NCBI RefSeq assembly: GCF_014805525.1
Contig: NZ_JACFSZ010000004.1
Span: 1 to 64,000, forward strand
Source of the DNA: Rhabdothermincola sediminis
Lineage (GTDB): Bacteria > Actinomycetota > Acidimicrobiia > Acidimicrobiales > Acidimicrobilacustridaceae
Length of the DNA stretch: 64,000 bases
Direction of reading: 5' to 3'
The notes under the pieces are model-generated. The model searched no databases. It had not been told where the DNA came from and saw only the letters and a program-made list of their open reading frames with translations. Shown in pieces: positions 46,982-56,972 of the stretch (its first letter is position 1; every line of letters starts with the position of its first letter). The position numbers and the translations under genes are program-made.

Positions 46982-47281
46982 TCAATCCTGCTGCATGGTG
47001 GCCCACAGGCCGTGTTCGTGGAGGCGGAAGACGTCCAGCTCTGCCTTCTCTCGCGAGCCACTCGACACCACGGCCTTGCCCTTGAAGTGGACATCGAGCA
47101 TCAACTTCTCGGCCTTCTCGTGCGAGTAGCCGAAGAGCTTCTGGAACACGTAGGTGACGTAGTCCATCAAGTTGATGGGATCGTTCCACACGATCACGAC
47201 CCACGGGCGGTCGACCTCGATCTCGCCGCCCAGGTCCGGCTCGTCGACCTCCACCGGCGCGGTCAGCGGTGCCGGGCTCAT
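46982..47281 (-). CDS. clpS: ClpS N-end-rule adaptor
   Basis: 99 residues from the ATG at 47279-47281, which overlaps the ctaA stop by 4 bp. The core [20 protein letters not shown] (about residues 26-45) with WNDP and the [20 protein letters not shown] segment are the ClpS signature; the Asp-Pro and Met/Val pocket residues bind N-terminal Leu/Phe/Tyr/Trp. The protein hands these substrates to ClpC/ClpA-ClpP. Followed by the DUF2017 gene. The acidic head (about 1-22) is flexible. Confidence 0.95.
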
Positions 47282-48243
47282 CCTCGGATGGCGGCCGGGT
47301 GCGCCCGCATCGGAAGACCGGCTCGGAGATCGAGGTCCCTGAGAGGGGTGGGCTCTGCCGGGGCGAACAGCGCGAGGTGGAAACGCAGGGTGGCGACCCA
47401 CACCACGACCGCGCCGAGGACGTGCAGCCCCACCAGCAGCGGCGGCACGCCAGTGAAGTACTGCGTGTAGCCGATCACGCCCTGGATCACGATCGCGCCG
47501 ACGAGCACGGCGCCCCGACGGCGCACCCCGGTGGGTACCCCGGAGCGGTAGGCACGCCACAGCATCGTCATCGCGAGGACGAGGAACAACCAGGCGGCGA
47601 TGGCATGGAGCCGGGTCACCTCGGAGATCTCGAGCTGCAGGCGTTCGGCCCGCTCGTCGCCGCCGTGCGGACCGGTGGCAGTGACGATCGTTCCCGCCAC
47701 CACGACCGCGAGAGCCGCGGCGACGGTCGCTCGGCCGAGTGCGATCGTGCTCGTGGGGACGAGTGGACGGGTGGCAGGCGCGGGATTCGATGCCCGCTCG
47801 TGGAGCACCACTGCGTTCCACAGCAGCACGATCGAGAGCAGGAAGTGCCCGATCACCGACAAAGGCGCGAGATGGAGGAGGACCACGATCCCACCGAGCA
47901 CGATCTGCGCCAGCACGCCAGCGACGAGCCCTAGCGACCACCAGGTGAGATCTCGACGTCTCGGCTCGCGCGCCAACGAGCCGAGCACGGCCAGGATCAC
48001 CGCGACCGATACCACCCCGGTGATCGTGCGGTTCACGAACTCGACCATCGCGTGGTATTCGAGTGGTGCGACGAGTCGTCCCTGCTCGCAGGTCGGCCAA
48101 TCCGAGCACCCCAGCCCTGAGCCGGTCAGGCGCACGGCGGCGCCGGTCACGACGATGAACGCCAGCGCCAGCAGGGCGAGCAGCGTGATGCGCTGATAGG
48201 CCCGCGGCGACAGTCGAGGCAGGCGCCGGAGCGGTGCGTACAC
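47278..48243 (-). CDS. ctaA: Heme A synthase (CtaA/Cox15)
   Basis: 321 residues from a leaderless GTG at 48243 with TAGCAT (48250-48255) 6 nt upstream. Eight membrane helices; the functional motifs are [16 protein letters not shown] with the Cys pair, [15 protein letters not shown] with the first heme-ligand His, [12 protein letters not shown], and the second-half [10 protein letters not shown] and [10 protein letters not shown] histidines. It oxidises heme O to heme A for the oxidase cluster downstream. It is divergent from ctaB, which makes heme O. Confidence 0.93.
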
Positions 48244-48375
48244 GTCCCGATGCTACGGCTCGGGAGCGGCGAGCCCAAAGCCCCGGGCGTGTCGGGATCA
48301 CCGGCCTTCCGGGATCGGGCCGGGCCGGCAGGCGGTTTCGCCGTGAGGGATGGACCGCTCTACGCTCGGGGAGCC

Positions 48376-49284
48376 ATGGCCACCACCGCCGCTCCCCCGG
48401 CCAGCCTCACCTGGCAACGCCGTGTCGGGGCGTACGTGGCGCTGACCAAGCCACGCATCATCGAGCTCCTGCTCGTCACCACCGTTCCGACCATGATCGT
48501 GGCCGAGCGGGGCCTGCCATCACTGGGGCTGATCGTCGCCACGGTCGTCGGGGGCACACTGGCGGCGGGCGGGGCCAACGCCGTCAACATGTACGTTGAT
48601 CGCGACATCGACGCGGTCATGCAGCGGACCAAGAACCGCCCACTCGTCACCGGGGCGGTGGCACCGCGTCAGGCTCTGGGTTTCGCGGTGGCGATCGAGG
48701 CGGTCGCCTTCTTCTGGCTGTGGGGGCTGGTGAACCTGCTGAGCGCGGTGCTGGCGCTCGCTGCCTGTCTCTTCTACGTCTTCGTCTACACCCTCTGGCT
48801 CAAGCGCACCTCGACCACCAACATCGTCATCGGCGGCGCGGCCGGCGCCGCTCCGGTCCTCATCGGCTGGTCCGCGGTGACCAACCAGCTCTCCTGGGCC
48901 CCTCTCGTGCTGTTCGGTGTCATCTTCTTCTGGACGCCGCCACACTTCTGGGCCCTGGCCATCCGCTACCGCGACGACTATGCCTCGGCCGAGGTGCCCA
49001 TGCTGCCGGCCGTCCGCTCACTCCACGCCACCGCGGTGCGGATCGTCGTCTATGCGGTCGCGGTCTGGGTCCTCACGCTGGTGTTCGCCCCGGTCGCGGG
49101 CATGGGGACGGTCTACACGATCGCCGCGGTCGTCCTCGGCGCCCTGTTCACCGGGCTCTCCGTGGGCGTGCTGCGCACCGAGTCACCCTCGGTGGCGATG
49201 CGGTTGTTCTCGTTCTCGATCTCCTACGTCACGCTGCTGTTCGCGGCGATCGCGGTGGACGTGCTGGTCCGGTTCGGCCTGTGA
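48376..49284 (+). CDS. ctaB: Heme O synthase (protoheme IX farnesyltransferase)
   Basis: 302 residues from the ATG at 48376; the -10 box TACGCT (48361-48366) lies 9 nt upstream, so the longer open frame from 48250 is not used. UbiA-family prenyltransferase with nine membrane helices; [20 protein letters not shown] holds the Asp-rich farnesyl-diphosphate site and [20 protein letters not shown] the second Asp motif. It farnesylates heme B. ctaA lies divergently 133 bp away. Confidence 0.95.
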
Positions 49285-49461: not shown

Positions 49462-51054
49462 ATGGCGATCACCGAGACCAGACCCGAAACCGCCACCGAG
49501 ACGCACACCAACCCCTGGGACACCGGCGAGGAGTACCCGGCGGTGGCGGTGGTGCTCGGGACCGGCGACCACAAGACCCTGGGCCGCTTCTACATCGGCT
49601 TCGCCCTGCTGTTCGGCATCGTGGCCTGGGTGCTCCAGGGCCTGATCACCCTCGATGCCGCTGGCACCGACGTCCTTGGTGCCGACACCGCGTCGCAGGT
49701 CTTCACACTCGGACGGCTGAGCCTAGCTCTGCTGTTCGCCATCCCACTGCTCGTCGGTGTCGCGACGGTGGTGGTACCTCTCCAGGTTGGGGCGTCCACC
49801 ATCGCCTTCCCGCGCGCTGCGGCCGCCGCCTTCTGGACCTGGCTGCTCGGCTCGGTGCTCCTCCTGATCGCCTACTCGGTGAACGGTGGTGTCGGTGGCG
49901 GGCGCCCGAAGGGTGTCGATCTCGCCTACCTGGCGATCGGCGTGACGATCGTGGCCCTGCTCCTGGCCTCGATCTGCGTCATGACGACGGTCGTCGCTCT
50001 CCGGGCTCCTGGTATGTACCTCGACCGGGTTCCGATGTTCTCGTGGGGGATGTTCGTCGCTGGTGCCATCTGGCTGCTCAGCCTGCCGGTGTTCCTCGCC
50101 AACGTGCTGTTGATCTACGTCGACCACCATTTCGGTCGGCCCACGGATTTCGGCGTCGCGCTCAACCAGTGGCCGCAGCTCGGCTGGCTGTTCGAGCAGC
50201 CTCAGGTGTTCGCGTTCGCCATCCCCGTGCTCGGCGCGCTCGGCGACATCGTCGCCACCTCAGCCGGGGTCCGGCAGCGGAACCGGGGCTTTCTGCTGGC
50301 CGCGATCGGCGCGTTCGGGATCCTGTCGTTCGGTGCATTCGCCCAGCCCTACTTCAACGAGGACGTCTGGGAACAAGTCCTGTTCGTGGTGGTGGGCGTG
50401 GTGTTGCTCATCCCGCTCCTGTTGCTGATCGCCGGCTGGGCCACCACGATGACGCAGGGCCGGCCCCGGATCACCACCGCCAGCGTCGGCGCCTTGCTCG
50501 CTGCCCTGGTCCTGATCCTGGCGGCCCTCGGCAGCGCCCTCTACGTCATCCGTCCACTGCGACTGCAGGCGAACGACCGCCTCGATCTCCCACTGGCGAA
50601 CGCCTTCCAGACGGGAATGCTGGCGCTGGTCGTCGGCGCGGTGAGCGTGGGCGCCATCGCCGCGCTGCACTTCTGGTCCCCGAAGGTCACGGGCCGGCTG
50701 GCCAACGACGGCCTCGGCAAGATCCTGGTCCTGGTGGGTTTCGCCGGCTCGGTGCTGGCCGGGCTGCCGCTGTGTGTCCTCGGTTTCGCCAACCGCTGGG
50801 ACCGGCTGGCGGACGCGGCCGACGCCCTGTACCTGGTGTCCACCGCGGGCGCTGCGTTGTTGGCCGTCGCCGTGCTCCTCGCCGGGTTGAACATGCTGGC
50901 TGCCAGTCGTGGACCCCGGGCGGAGGAGGATCCGTGGGGTGGGCAGACCTTGGAGTGGGCAACCCCTTCACCCCCACCCACGGGCAACTTCGGTGAGCTC
51001 CCGCCTATCGAGTCCGCCGAACCGCTGCTCGACGTCAAGGAGGCTGGGTCCTGA
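49462..51054 (+). CDS. Degenerate heme-copper oxidase subunit I homologue lacking all metal ligands
   Basis: 530 residues from the ATG at 49462, about 12 membrane helices. It aligns along its whole length with the CtaD of the same cluster: SQVFTLG with VVPLQVGASTIAFPRA (CtaD NQVYTMH with LMPLQIGARDVAFPRI), and the tail LEWATPSPPPTGNF (CtaD IEWMVPSPTPEWNF). Every ligand is gone: the low-spin heme His of YTMHG is Gly84, GHPEVY is EQPQVF (CuB His to Gln246, cross-linked Tyr to Phe250), the AHH pair is absent and HFHY reads AFQT. It cannot bind heme a, a3 or CuB in the known way. The hydrophobic frame is intact, so it is a maintained protein, perhaps structural or for assembly. Confidence 0.85.
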   Translation: MAITETRPETATETHTNPWDTGEEYPAVAVVLGTGDHKTLGRFYIGFALLFGIVAWVLQGLITLDAAGTDVLGADTASQVFTLGRLSLALLFAIPLLVGVATVVVPLQVGASTIAFPRAAAAAFWTWLLGSVLLLIAYSVNGGVGGGRPKGVDLAYLAIGVTIVALLLASICVMTTVVALRAPGMYLDRVPMFSWGMFVAGAIWLLSLPVFLANVLLIYVDHHFGRPTDFGVALNQWPQLGWLFEQPQVFAFAIPVLGALGDIVATSAGVRQRNRGFLLAAIGAFGILSFGAFAQPYFNEDVWEQVLFVVVGVVLLIPLLLLIAGWATTMTQGRPRITTASVGALLAALVLILAALGSALYVIRPLRLQANDRLDLPLANAFQTGMLALVVGAVSVGAIAALHFWSPKVTGRLANDGLGKILVLVGFAGSVLAGLPLCVLGFANRWDRLADAADALYLVSTAGAALLAVAVLLAGLNMLAASRGPRAEEDPWGGQTLEWATPSPPPTGNFGELPPIESAEPLLDVKEAGS

Positions 51055-52638: not shown

Positions 52639-53856
52639 ATGCCCCGTCGCTCGCTCTTTCTGAAGGTCTTCGGAACGGCGTCCTTCACCATCGTCGCCGT
52701 CCTGTACGTGGCCCTGATCGTCGCCGTCTTCCGGAACGACGACAAGCCACTGACCACGCTCGCCCCGAAAGGGGTCAATGCCCAGACCATCCAGAACCTC
52801 GTCGCGCCGGTGTTCGGCGTGGCCGGGGTCATCTTCGTAGCGGTCTTCGGAGCGGTGCTCTACATCACCTGGCGCTTCCGGGACCGTGACGACGACACCC
52901 CGATGCCGAGCCAGGTGCACGGCAACTCCGTGCTGGAGGTCGGCTGGACGGCCTTGCCCGCACTGATCCTGGCAGCGATCGCGGTGTTCACCGTCATCAC
53001 CATCATCAAGCTCGAGCAACGGTCCGATGACGCCCTCGCGGTCCGCGTGTACGGCCAGCAGTGGTGGTGGAGCTACCAGTACGACGTCGACGGCGACGGC
53101 AGCTACGACGGTCAGGGCGACATCACCACCGCGAACGAGCTGGTCATCCCCGCTGGGCGTGAGGTGTCGTTGACCATCAGCTCGCACGATGTCATCCACA
53201 GCTTCTGGATCCCGGCCCTGAACGGCAAGAAGGATGCGGTGCCGGGCATGGACAGCCACTGGAAGATCGAAGCGGATCAACCGGGTGTGTACATGGGGCA
53301 GTGCACCGAGTTCTGCGGTCTCTCGCACGCCAACATGCGCATGGTGGTGCGGGCATTGGATCCCGCCCAGTTCGACGAGTGGGTCGCCAATCAACAGCGT
53401 CCTGCTCGATCGCCGGAGCCGGGCTCCCTCGCCGCAGCCGGTGAGGCCCAGTTCGGCAACCTCTGCGCGCAGTGCCACGTCGTGAACGGCAAGTTCGAGA
53501 AGGCCGAGGAGACACCGCCACCATTGCTCTCGGGCGTCGCGCCGAACCTCACCCATCTCATGACCCGTGGCACGTTCGCCGGCTCCATCTTCAACCTCTA
53601 CTACCCCCAGCAGCCCGGCGCCCCCGTTCCGACGCCGGGGGACCCGACGGACGCGTCGACACCCGGTGATCCGGGTGACGCGCTCTTCGGGGGAACGAGC
53701 GCGTACCCGGTCAATCGGGTGACGCTCGAGGCATGGCTCCGGAACCCGCCGGCGATGAAGCCTGCTGCCGCCACGCAGAAACGGGGCATGCCGAACCTCG
53801 GCCTGAGCGAACAGCAGATCGACGAACTGGTCGCGTACCTCGAGACCTTGAAGTAG
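52639..53856 (+). CDS. ctaC: Cytochrome c oxidase subunit II fused to cytochrome c (caa3 type)
   Basis: 405 residues. Two N-terminal membrane helices, then the cupredoxin domain: VYGQQWWWSYQYD, SSHDVIHSFWIP and the CuA loop GQCTEFCGLSHANMRM with both Cys, His and Met ligands. A linker leads to a C-terminal cytochrome c (about 275-405) with CAQCH and a likely axial Met in KRGMPNLGLS. It accepts electrons from cytochrome c or the bc complex and passes them to CtaD. There is no lipobox. First gene of the ctaCDEF block. Confidence 0.95.
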   Translation: MPRRSLFLKVFGTASFTIVAVLYVALIVAVFRNDDKPLTTLAPKGVNAQTIQNLVAPVFGVAGVIFVAVFGAVLYITWRFRDRDDDTPMPSQVHGNSVLEVGWTALPALILAAIAVFTVITIIKLEQRSDDALAVRVYGQQWWWSYQYDVDGDGSYDGQGDITTANELVIPAGREVSLTISSHDVIHSFWIPALNGKKDAVPGMDSHWKIEADQPGVYMGQCTEFCGLSHANMRMVVRALDPAQFDEWVANQQRPARSPEPGSLAAAGEAQFGNLCAQCHVVNGKFEKAEETPPPLLSGVAPNLTHLMTRGTFAGSIFNLYYPQQPGAPVPTPGDPTDASTPGDPGDALFGGTSAYPVNRVTLEAWLRNPPAMKPAAATQKRGMPNLGLSEQQIDELVAYLETLK

Positions 53857-53897: not shown

Positions 53898-55931
53898 ATG
53901 GCCCTCACTGAGTCCCGCCCGCTCGCCCTGCCCTCAGGCGAGCCGACCGAGGTGGAGTTCCATCCGATCGGTGTGTTCGAGCGCCCCAAGTCCAAGCGGG
54001 GTTGGCGTTCGTGGTTGACCACCGTCGATCACAAGAAGATCGGCATCATGTACGGCGCCGCGGCGCTGTTCTTCCTGCTCATCGCGGGGAGTGAAGCCCT
54101 GCTGATCCGGGCGCAGCTGTGGTCCCCACGCGGCACGCTGCTCTCGGCGGATGCCTACAACCAGGTGTACACGATGCACGGCACGACCGCCGTCTTCTTG
54201 GTGGTGATGCCGTTGGGCGCGGCGTTCGCCAACTACCTGATGCCGCTGCAGATCGGCGCCCGGGACGTCGCCTTCCCGCGCATCAACGCCTTCAGCTTCT
54301 GGTGCTTCCTCGTCGGTGGCATCTTCCTGAACACGTCGTGGTTCCTGGGTGGCGGCGCCGATGGTGGCTGGTTCATGTACGCACCGAACAACGGCGTGCT
54401 CTACTCGCCGAGCCACGGGATCGACTTCTGGAACCTGGGCCTCATCATGACCGGCATCGGTTCGCTGACCGGCGCCATCAACCTGATCGTCACGGTGCTC
54501 AACATGCGGGCACCCGGCATGACGCTCATGAAGATGCCGGTCTTCACCTGGATGACGCTGGTCACGCAGTTCCTGCTGCTCTTCGCCATCCCCGTGCTCA
54601 CGACCGCGCAGTTCCTGCTGCTGTTCGATCGGCTCTTCGATGCCAACTTCTTCAACGTGGCGCAGGGTGCGAACCCGTTGCTGTGGCAGCACCTCTTCTG
54701 GATCTTCGGGCATCCCGAGGTGTACCTGATGATCCTGCCGGCGTTCGGCCTCGTCTCCGAGATGCTGCCCGTGTTCTCCCGCAAGCCGATCTTCGGCTAC
54801 CCGTTCATCGTCTTCTCCGGTGTCGCCATCGGCTTCATGGGCTGGGGCGTGTGGGCTCACCACATGTTCGTGTCCGGTATCGGGCCGATCTCGGTGACGA
54901 CCTTCTCGCTGACCACGATGTTCATCGCGGTTCCCACCGGGGTGAAGATCCTGAACTGGACCGCCACCATGTGGGGCGGGAAGCTCCGGTTCACCTCGCC
55001 GATGCTCTTCTCCATCGGGCTGATCCTCATGTTCACCCTCGGAGGGCTGTCCGGCGTCAGCCACTCGATCGCACCGGCCGACACTCAGCAGACCGACACC
55101 TACTACATCGTCGCCCACTTCCACTACGTGCTCTTCGGCGGAGCCTTCTTCGGGTTCATGGGTGCGCTCTACTTCTACTGGCCGAAGGTGTTCGGCTACA
55201 TGCTCGACGAGCGCATCGGCAAGGCGAACTTCTGGCTGCTGCTCGCCGGCTTCAACCTCACGTTCGCACCCATGCACGTGCTCGGCCTCCAGGGCATGTC
55301 GCGGCGGGTGTACACCTACGACGCGGGCTTCGGCTTCGAGATCTGGAACAAGGTGGCGACGATCGGGGCCTTCACCATCGCTACGAGCGTTCTGCTCTTC
55401 ATCGTGAACATCTTCCTGAGTCGCAAGCGTGCCAAGGACCTGCCGCCCCCGGGGGCAGATCCGTGGGATGCCCGGACGATCGAATGGATGGTGCCCTCCC
55501 CGACACCCGAATGGAACTTCGATCCGATCCCCACGATCGAGCGGGTGGACGACTTCTGGTACCGCAAGTACGGCGAGGACGAGAACGGCAACCTGGTTCG
55601 GGTCGCGGAGACCGACGAGGTGGTGCAACACAGCGACGGCAAAGGCGTGCACCTGCCCTCCCCCTCCTACTGGCCGCTCGTCACCGCGCTCGGCCTACCG
55701 ATCATCGGCTACGGGCTGCTCTACACGTGGTGGCTCTGCCTGATCGGTGGTCTCGTCGTCGTGGCCGGTCTCTACGGCTGGGCGATGGAGCCACCCGACG
55801 ACCCGGATGCCGCTCACGGCGATGAGCACGGCCCGGACGACGAGACCCTCGAGGGCGCCGAGCTGCCCACCCGGGAGCCCGCTGCGGTCGCGGCGGCGGT
55901 CGAAGAGCAGGAGGCCGAGACCGTTGGCTGA
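53898..55931 (+). CDS. ctaD: Cytochrome c oxidase subunit I
   Basis: 677 residues; SD GGAG 7 nt before the ATG. All ligands are present: His94 (YTMHGT) and His409 for heme a, His272 (GHPEVY, with Tyr276), His321 and His322 (AHHMF) for CuB, and His407 (AHFHYV) for heme a3. The SKRGWRSWLTTVDHKKIGI head is normal. After the usual 12 helices, a hydrophilic linker (about 520-580) leads to two more helices (WPLVTALGLPIIGYGLLYTW and a following one), a C-terminal extension usual in actinobacterial CtaD. It ends in an acidic tail overlapping ctaE. Confidence 0.97.
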   Translation: MALTESRPLALPSGEPTEVEFHPIGVFERPKSKRGWRSWLTTVDHKKIGIMYGAAALFFLLIAGSEALLIRAQLWSPRGTLLSADAYNQVYTMHGTTAVFLVVMPLGAAFANYLMPLQIGARDVAFPRINAFSFWCFLVGGIFLNTSWFLGGGADGGWFMYAPNNGVLYSPSHGIDFWNLGLIMTGIGSLTGAINLIVTVLNMRAPGMTLMKMPVFTWMTLVTQFLLLFAIPVLTTAQFLLLFDRLFDANFFNVAQGANPLLWQHLFWIFGHPEVYLMILPAFGLVSEMLPVFSRKPIFGYPFIVFSGVAIGFMGWGVWAHHMFVSGIGPISVTTFSLTTMFIAVPTGVKILNWTATMWGGKLRFTSPMLFSIGLILMFTLGGLSGVSHSIAPADTQQTDTYYIVAHFHYVLFGGAFFGFMGALYFYWPKVFGYMLDERIGKANFWLLLAGFNLTFAPMHVLGLQGMSRRVYTYDAGFGFEIWNKVATIGAFTIATSVLLFIVNIFLSRKRAKDLPPPGADPWDARTIEWMVPSPTPEWNFDPIPTIERVDDFWYRKYGEDENGNLVRVAETDEVVQHSDGKGVHLPSPSYWPLVTALGLPIIGYGLLYTWWLCLIGGLVVVAGLYGWAMEPPDDPDAAHGDEHGPDDETLEGAELPTREPAAVAAAVEEQEAETVG

Positions 55932-56565
55932 GACCGTCACCCACCACCGCGAGCTGCTCGCCGAGCGGGACGCTCACGCGCCGGTCGCCCACCCCGACCA
56001 CGCCACGAACACCGGCATCTCCAACACCAAGTTGGCGATGTGGCTGTTCCTGGCCTCCGAGTGCCTGCTGTTCGGCGGGCTCATCACCACCTACTTGCTC
56101 TACAAGCACCCGCTCCCCGGCTCGGGACCGGGGCCACACGACGTGTTCGACATCCCGTTCACCTCCGCGAGCTCGTTCGTGTTGCTGATGAGCTCGCTCA
56201 CGATGGTGCTGGCGGTCTCCGCCATCGAGCGGGGTGACCATCACCGGCTGCGGGTCTGGCTGGTGGGCACGGCCTTGCTCGGAGCCACCTTCATCGCCGG
56301 TCAGGTCTACGAGTTCACCGTCTTCTACAACGAGGGGCTCGGTTACACGACGAGCCGTTTCAGCTCGGCCTTCTACACCCTGACGGGCTTCCACGGGGTC
56401 CACGTGACGGTGGGCATCATCATGCTCGTCTCGCTGGTGCTGCTCTCCCTGCGGGGGCGGTTGCCGGAGCATCGATCGGAGACCGTCGAGATCGTCGGTC
56501 TGTACTGGCATTTCGTCGACGTCGTGTGGATCCTCATCTTCGCCGTCGTCTATCTGATCCCGTAG
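55924..56565 (+). CDS. ctaE: Cytochrome c oxidase subunit III
   Basis: 213 residues from a TTG at 55924 inside the end of ctaD (8-bp overlap). Five helices; NTKLAMWLFLASECLLFGGL, the GQVYEFTVFYNEGL segment, YTLTGFHGVHVTVGI with the conserved His pair, and YWHFVDVVWILIFAVVYLI are canonical. The TTG start is chosen because the conserved part begins at once and the upstream frame lies in ctaD. Confidence 0.93.
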   Translation: MAETVTHHRELLAERDAHAPVAHPDHATNTGISNTKLAMWLFLASECLLFGGLITTYLLYKHPLPGSGPGPHDVFDIPFTSASSFVLLMSSLTMVLAVSAIERGDHHRLRVWLVGTALLGATFIAGQVYEFTVFYNEGLGYTTSRFSSAFYTLTGFHGVHVTVGIIMLVSLVLLSLRGRLPEHRSETVEIVGLYWHFVDVVWILIFAVVYLIP

Positions 56566-56576
56566 GAGTTCATGCC

Positions 56577-56972
56577 ATGGCCGCGGTGACGCCGGAACCG
56601 ACCGATCAGCCGATCCCCACCCAGGCCCTCGACGGCGCGGTGGCCGAGTACCCCCGTGACCGGCTCTACGTGATGACCGCCGTGTTCCTCGCCATCGTCA
56701 CCGCGGTGGAGATCGCGACCTACGTGTGGCCGGAGCTCCCGGTGTGGAGCTGGGGCCACGAGAGCAACGTCGGCATCATCGCCGCCCTGATGGTCCTGAT
56801 GGCGATCAAGTTCTTCACCGTGGCCTGGGTGTTCATGCACCTCAAGTTCGACAAGCCGTTGCTGAACCGGCTCTTTGCTGCCGGCTTGATCCTCGCGATC
56901 TCCGTCTACCTCGCGGTCATGGCGGCGTTCCGGATGTTCTGGGCCGGCGACGAGATGGTCAGGCGAGGCTGA
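56577..56972 (+). CDS. Cytochrome c oxidase subunit IV (prokaryotic)
   Basis: 131 residues from the ATG at 56577; an earlier ATG at 56572 is out of frame. Three helices: LYVMTAVFLAIVTAVEIATY, IAALMVLMAIKFFTVAWVFM and the LFAAGLILAISVYLAVMAAF helix, with the MHLKFD motif of the COX4_pro family between the last two. Last gene of the oxidase block; convergent with the ABC exporter genes. Confidence 0.88.
   Translation: MAAVTPEPTDQPIPTQALDGAVAEYPRDRLYVMTAVFLAIVTAVEIATYVWPELPVWSWGHESNVGIIAALMVLMAIKFFTVAWVFMHLKFDKPLLNRLFAAGLILAISVYLAVMAAFRMFWAGDEMVRRG

Follow-up and report, generated by a model that had tools for sequence, protein, structure and literature searches.

Our analyses show that the gene at 49462-51054 of the window (the whole stretch of 64,000 nucleotides of Rhabdothermincola sediminis DNA that we analysed) codes for a full-length oxidase subunit I without any of the six ligand histidines, and that it stands at the head of a three-gene module, I'-III'-IV', located directly upstream of the ctaCDEF genes of a caa3 oxidase. 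We propose that this pseudo-oxidase module is a putative structural partner of caa3, a reading of the sequence data to which we give roughly an even chance. The first-pass annotation of this DNA had offered an assembly scaffold or structural partner of caa3 among its readings of the single gene, and the operon linkage makes this a good one; it had overlooked the paralogues of subunits III and IV (III' and IV') and the existence of relatives that still carry heme ligands. The usual gene order is ctaB - I' - III' - IV' - ctaC - ctaD - ctaE - ctaF, with ctaA often divergent. In the window, the genes are as follows.

47278..48243, minus strand: CtaA, heme A synthase, divergent (often, not always, so in relatives)
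48250..49284, plus strand: CtaB, heme O synthase, the upstream neighbour in 59 of 60 loci
49462..51054, plus strand: I' (pseudo-CtaD), ligand-free subunit I paralogue, 530 aa, 12 predicted membrane helices
51054..51647, plus strand: III', module subunit III paralogue of the COX3 family (Pfam COX3), 197 aa
51653..52546, plus strand: IV', module subunit IV-like protein, likely start 51677 by family alignment
52639..53856, plus strand: CtaC, subunit II, CuA domain and fused cytochrome c (caa3 type)
53898..55931, plus strand: CtaD, working subunit I of caa3, all ligands present, C-terminal Cyt_c_ox_IV domain
55747..56565, plus strand: CtaE, caa3 subunit III (the listed frame overlaps ctaD)
56526..56972, plus strand: CtaF, caa3 subunit IV (COX4_pro)

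The real start of CtaE probably lies just after 55931. In the working caa3 CtaD, the Cyt_c_ox_IV domain (PF12270) is fused at the C-terminus of subunit I. Since ctaB precedes I' on the same strand, with a gap of 177 bases, I' is the first gene of the oxidase cluster, as originally described, only if ctaB is left out. The window's own genome has three COX1 genes: I', the caa3 ctaD and an aa3-type ctaD on another contig, near which Caa3_CtaG, a COX2 protein and cytochrome b are encoded.

The I' frame is intact and stop-free over its 530 residues, as read in the window, and the protein passes the sequence cut-off of the COX1 superfamily (Pfam COX1, 5.9e-48, 164.2 bits against a cut-off of 34.8, profile positions 2-434 of 436). 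Its nearest solved chains are mycobacterial CtaD chains (about 4e-49 over residues 30-524) and the COX1 C-tail motif is present, in agreement with the alignment along CtaD down to the tail that had been noticed at first. The more specific oxidase profiles are missed: TIGR02891 gives 230.4 bits, below its curated cut-off of 670.75, which the window's working CtaD passes with 677, and NF050116 gives 211.4 bits against a cut-off of 880 that the working CtaD also misses (591.4). On the alignment with CtaD, none of the six ligand histidines is found; in their places stand G (heme a, TM2), Q, Q and P (CuB), M (a3) and A (a), the exact letters in the TM10 region being alignment-dependent, and the cross-linked tyrosine is replaced by F. 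The original description of a full-length subunit I fold stripped of its six histidines is thereby borne out. Ligands shifted and hidden by misalignment were considered and rejected on CtaD alignments of the I' rows. Among 41 aligned rows of the window's type (L109 and L110 omitted as identical to L035 and L023, L048 representing L017), 35 keep no ligand histidine, four keep one and two keep two; the D-channel Asp, the D-channel Asn and the K-channel Lys are absent from all 41, and the D-channel Glu is kept by one. The position of the cross-linked tyrosine is still Y in 26 of the 41, so that its reported loss holds for the window copy and some others, not for the family. One clade of I' sequences (L024, L025, L028, L040 and relatives, some of them Candidatus Poriferisocius) is without the cytoplasmic C-tail DPWxGxTLEW...SPPPxGNF that most others keep.

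An AlphaFold2 model of I' (mean pLDDT 83.7, pTM 0.89) keeps the 12-helix COX1 fold and matches the CtaD chain 6adq_F with TM values of 0.84/0.81; six of the 31 rows of its input alignment were canonical CtaD, which may help the fold. Conservation was scored in 24 diverse window-type rows at residues invariant in 21 working CtaD/CtaD2 rows, the sides of the membrane being assigned from the model's helices and the known COX1 orientation, which we take to apply to I'. Averaged over these residues, the share of rows that keep them is highest in the C-tail (0.88) and the cytoplasmic loops (0.73), intermediate in the middle and cytoplasmic helix thirds (0.45-0.48), and lowest in the periplasmic loops (0.27) and the periplasmic helix third (0.19). 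In mid-membrane, conservation is highest at Pro, Gly, Trp, Leu and Ala positions; in these 24 rows the middle third of the helices holds no strongly conserved charged residue, and likewise no strongly conserved Ser, Thr, Asn, Gln, His or Tyr. This pattern speaks for a retained docking face and against conduction or redox chemistry. Compared with the actinobacterial aa3 CtaD (bcc-aa3 type, 6adq chain F), I' shares homology over residues 30-524, the predicted fold, the cytoplasmic motifs and the C-tail, whereas the window protein is without the heme, CuB and proton-channel residues and its periplasmic half has strongly diverged.

The two companion genes resemble other subunits of the same oxidases, III' matching actinobacterial aa3 CtaE and IV' weakly matching CtaF. 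The ATG of III' overlaps the TGA of I' (TGATG), with GGAGG just upstream, and its protein matches Pfam COX3 (3.5e-15, 57 bits, over the cut-off of 23.8) and subunit III chains of the PDB (2.6e-16). In contrast to CtaE as defined by NCBIfam, it stays far below the cut-off of NF050119 (aa3_CtaE_Actin; 59.8 bits against 190), which the working caa3 CtaE also misses (139.6). The III' proteins form a clade of their own (SH-aLRT 99). IV' is more composite. Its single sequence finds no confident family match, and its N half resembles actinobacterial CtaF: a profile of the IV' family matches the PDB entry 'Cytochrome c oxidase polypeptide 4' (CtaF chains) weakly, at 9.2e-4 over positions 6-130, and PF12270 matches three of 13 IV' members (best 1.3e-4), the window IV' alone being unmatched. 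Unlike CtaF, IV' has a second membrane part in its C half, homologous to the membrane portion of a cupredoxin protein encoded downstream in caa3 operons of other Actinomycetota; the cupredoxin domain itself is absent from the window IV'. The IV' model has low confidence (pLDDT 62), and its structure matches (VIA-align) are mixed helical proteins, among which an M. tuberculosis CtaF chain, 8hcr_H, ranks 35th (Z 6.3); the model is weak and unusable alone. The module shows no subunit II paralogue. In nine caa3 operons of other Actinomycetota (L094, L095, L096, L098, L099, L100, L101, L106 and L107), the membrane-anchored cupredoxin protein usually comes after ctaG. In three IV' of family f2 (L052, L053, L105), the C-terminus is an extension that stands where the cupredoxin domain would be and has no C..H..M copper motif.

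I' homologues occupy the same operon slot across the order of the window's genome. A pattern scan of a collection of genome contigs recovered 24 loci, all of the ligand-free I' kind, under titles naming Acidimicrobiia, Acidimicrobiales, less defined Actinomycetota and 'bacterium' MAGs; a survey of 148 genomes of the window's class gave 18 I' matches at E 1e-60, including two canonical CtaD (L014, L015) and one heme-ligand-keeping protein (L017). Across 60 loci with readable I' and IV', IV' always lies downstream on the same strand and III' always between the two (57 by frames, three by tblastn), ctaB is upstream of I' in 59, and a script found ctaC downstream in 58; of the remaining two, L049 has ctaC on separate reading and L159 has none following. 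The distance to ctaC varies: in several heme-ligand-keeping relatives 0.5-1.2 kb lie between IV' and ctaC, G134 has a thioredoxin/redoxin-like gene there (L048:8591-9232), and in G492 and G726 (L102, L158) about 5 kb of other genes separate the two.

The same linkage appears at the level of whole genomes. In a survey of 148 genomes of the order, with the window-type ctaD (E 1e-190) as marker of caa3 and IV' (E 1e-12) as marker of the module, ctaD was found in 88, IV' in 97 and both in 87. The contig of the single caa3-only genome ends 224 bases upstream of ctaD. Seven of the 10 IV'-only genomes were inspected (G675, G716 and G739 were left out) and all lead into caa3 genes, six with ctaC or ctaD cut by the contig end and one, G683, with an apparently interrupted ctaD; in that locus (L149), I' and IV' are open. 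All 79 pairs of IV' and ctaD on the same contig have the same strand, IV' upstream and a distance within 8.5 kb. The two markers lie on different contigs in eight genomes; in G744, module and caa3 are on separate contigs and no ctaC occurs within 2 kb after IV'. The Fisher value of 4e-28 for this co-occurrence ignores descent and should not be taken for a probability; the counts are inflated by common ancestry, and operon linkage plus co-occurrence do not prove a single complex. Outside the order, genomes of other orders and classes with a related caa3 gave matches to the C half of IV' only, and ten caa3 operons (L094-L101, L106, L107) had no module in the 0-2 kb visible upstream of ctaC, which implies that caa3 as such does not need it.

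The loss of ligands is graded within the family. Our ligand survey comprised 63 loci, 61 of them with a readable I' (L160 and L166 have no subunit I frame because of a contig end, and L022 has no IV'); its counts refer to loci, not to independent lineages, and include the identical copies L109 and L110. No CuB histidine is present in 58 of the 61 and one in three, never more than one of the three. The histidine pair of heme a is kept in 17 loci, nine of which also keep the a3 histidine, and a histidine at the a3 position without the heme a pair occurs in two. The K-channel Lys is lost in all module rows read and the D-channel Asp is kept in one (L168). In trees of chosen subsets (63 and 57 rows for subunit I, 50 of 140 for subunit III), the module subunit I forms one clade (SH-aLRT 100) on which heme a, a3 and copper each require at least four changes. 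The module joins the aa3 side of the subunit I tree with an SH-aLRT of 84 only, and the subunit III tree, in which long branches meet, leaves its origin unresolved.

Despite the ligand loss, the module remains under selection. The dN/dS of I' is 0.13-0.27 (Nei-Gojobori, 10 pairs, some of which share a sequence and one of which is of the heme-ligand-keeping type), compared with 0.06-0.18 for ctaD in eight of the same pairs; evolution is faster in the module than in CtaD. The 18 class-survey matches contain no stop, and the I' frames span 519-673 aa in 40 aligned rows. Together with the order-wide retention, the dN/dS values, a check that had been suggested at the outset, uphold the initial view that the gene is selected for something other than oxygen reduction. 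Neither of the two outcomes singled out beforehand as fatal to that view was found: the ligands are not shifted, and the homologues occur beyond this genome and show no decay.

The linkage to caa3 outlasts the known cofactor sites, which favours a non-redox role. We suggest that the I'-III'-IV' module would have a single origin from a real heme-copper oxidase, probably one of the actinobacterial aa3 type that had come to lie beside caa3. All members read have lost the CuB site and the K-channel Lys, and all except L168 the D-channel Asp; branch-wise losses of heme a3, heme a and the cupredoxin copper may have followed, in an order that we reconstruct only provisionally. I', III' and IV' would come together in the manner of subunits I, III and IV, and the cofactor-free module may dock on CtaCDEF as a second, inert protomer. 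Once docked, it might stabilise caa3, aid its assembly, or link caa3 to another complex.

The main rival, in our judgement unlikely, is that the module acts as an assembly or cofactor-delivery factor that holds heme A (from CtaB/CtaA) and copper or hands them to nascent CtaD and CtaC, and then leaves; early members would have carried heme and copper, and the window version would have kept only the docking. The nearly constant ctaB neighbour fits this idea, as does the stabilisation of CtaB suggested for an Acetobacter protein (in passages of PMC10715153). So does the joint occurrence, in relatives, of the heme a pair and the C..H..M motif of a C-terminal cupredoxin domain in IV': among 60 loci, 15 have both, 41 neither, two the pair only and two the motif only. 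However, a tree-aware test of heme versus copper loss finds three to four independent pairs and is not significant, so that this association is suggestive, not proven. SURF1 offers a further lead, and a lead only: it is missing in three of four heme-ligand-keeping genomes and present in 20 of 20 other module genomes, ligands having been read in 18 of these 20 (G589 and G635 are without ligand reading). On the other side, all 40 genomes tested have Caa3_CtaG and all 20 window-type module genomes have SURF1, so that the module replaces neither in the latter and both replacements were rejected; moreover, an assembly factor would not need full subunit III and IV partners. In the SURF1 examination, which took in G134, G597, G492 and others, SURF1 was also recorded in G075, and it was absent from all eight genomes of the order without the module.

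A second alternative, which seems to us improbable, is that the module forms a membrane complex of its own, expressed together with caa3 and not belonging to it, with a novel role in transport, ion conduction or sensing. The complete 12-helix fold and the two partner subunits, kept by purifying selection, would suit such a complex; against it, the linkage is tight and to one oxidase type, the oxidase channel residues are gone, and the middle helix thirds have no strongly conserved polar or charged residue. This last result also tells against the new ion-conducting protein put forward by the first-pass annotation. Still less probable is a remnant of redox activity based on different ligands or cofactors, such as a heme bound by residues other than histidine. 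The heme a pair of the 17 relatives could be read in its favour, and the replacements are not random, with Tyr at the TM2 heme a position in 18 of the 41 window-type rows, Asn at the second TM10 position in 17, and Gln at one former CuB position in 30, which argues against fully free ligand loss. Yet these replacements vary from branch to branch and add up to no conserved combination of known ligands (the window protein shows G, Q, Q, P, M and A), and the propionate arginines are kept in only three (first) and 17 (second) of the 41 rows. That the module is a slowly decaying relic hitch-hiking in the operon is hardly credible: fast evolution, long branches, repeated loss of the cupredoxin domain and internal stops of IV' in three order-survey rows (G741, G675, G666) would fit, but decay of I' is disfavoured by open frames, a dN/dS well under 1 and order-wide retention after deep divergence.

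Returning to a structural partner of caa3, the observations can be joined in a broader reading, possible in our view and rather less probable than that role taken by itself. The modules would represent an undescribed branch of the heme-copper oxidase superfamily in which a CuB-less I'-III'-IV' is, within one bacterial order, an obligate partner of caa3. The less derived modules would form a cupredoxin-to-heme-a unit unable to reduce oxygen in the known way, which may hold electrons, heme or copper for caa3; the most derived, such as that of the window, would be a cofactor-free protomer giving rise to an asymmetric oxidase with one live and one dead core. The module itself amounts to a natural experiment: step by traceable step, cofactor sites disappear from the core of a respiratory proton pump, and selection still maintains the protein. 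It would show that an oxidase subunit I can act as a non-catalytic building block, and it predicts a caa3 architecture or assembly path that is so far unknown. It also implies that counts of COX1 genes overcount oxidases. Intermediates that retain the heme a pair, lack CuB and carry a cupredoxin open both the sequence of losses and the abilities of a heme-only core to direct testing.

The initial statement that no family of this kind had been described does not hold as worded. In Acetobacter, a 'deranged' COX1-like protein encoded beside ctaB is reported to lack all conserved metal-binding residues (Matsutani 2014, cited in PMC10715153), and a structural role has been proposed for it. Loss of the metal-binding residues, clustering with ctaB and the proposed role are common to both cases; by contrast, and as far as can be compared from description only, the Acetobacter protein comes from taxa without the parent cytochrome c oxidase, whereas here a I-III-IV module stands beside a working caa3 across an order. 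The same passages describe a non-functional bc1 complex in acidophilic Acetobacteraceae that lost its cofactor ligands and for which a structural role is proposed, like the module in these two respects and different in complex and setting (PMC10715153). A ligand-free COX1-like gene beside ctaB had therefore been reported already; what appears new is the module described here, since our literature searches found no description of it and the passages of PMC9145763 on oxidase assembly proteins make no mention of Acidimicrobiia. As for alternative complex III as a partner, the gene cluster around the NrfD match of the window's own genome encodes the Fe-S and molybdopterin proteins separately. This locus (L146; G000:C9, about 102-110 kb) groups an ArsA-type ATPase, an Fe-S protein, the NrfD-like membrane protein and a molybdopterin oxidoreductase.
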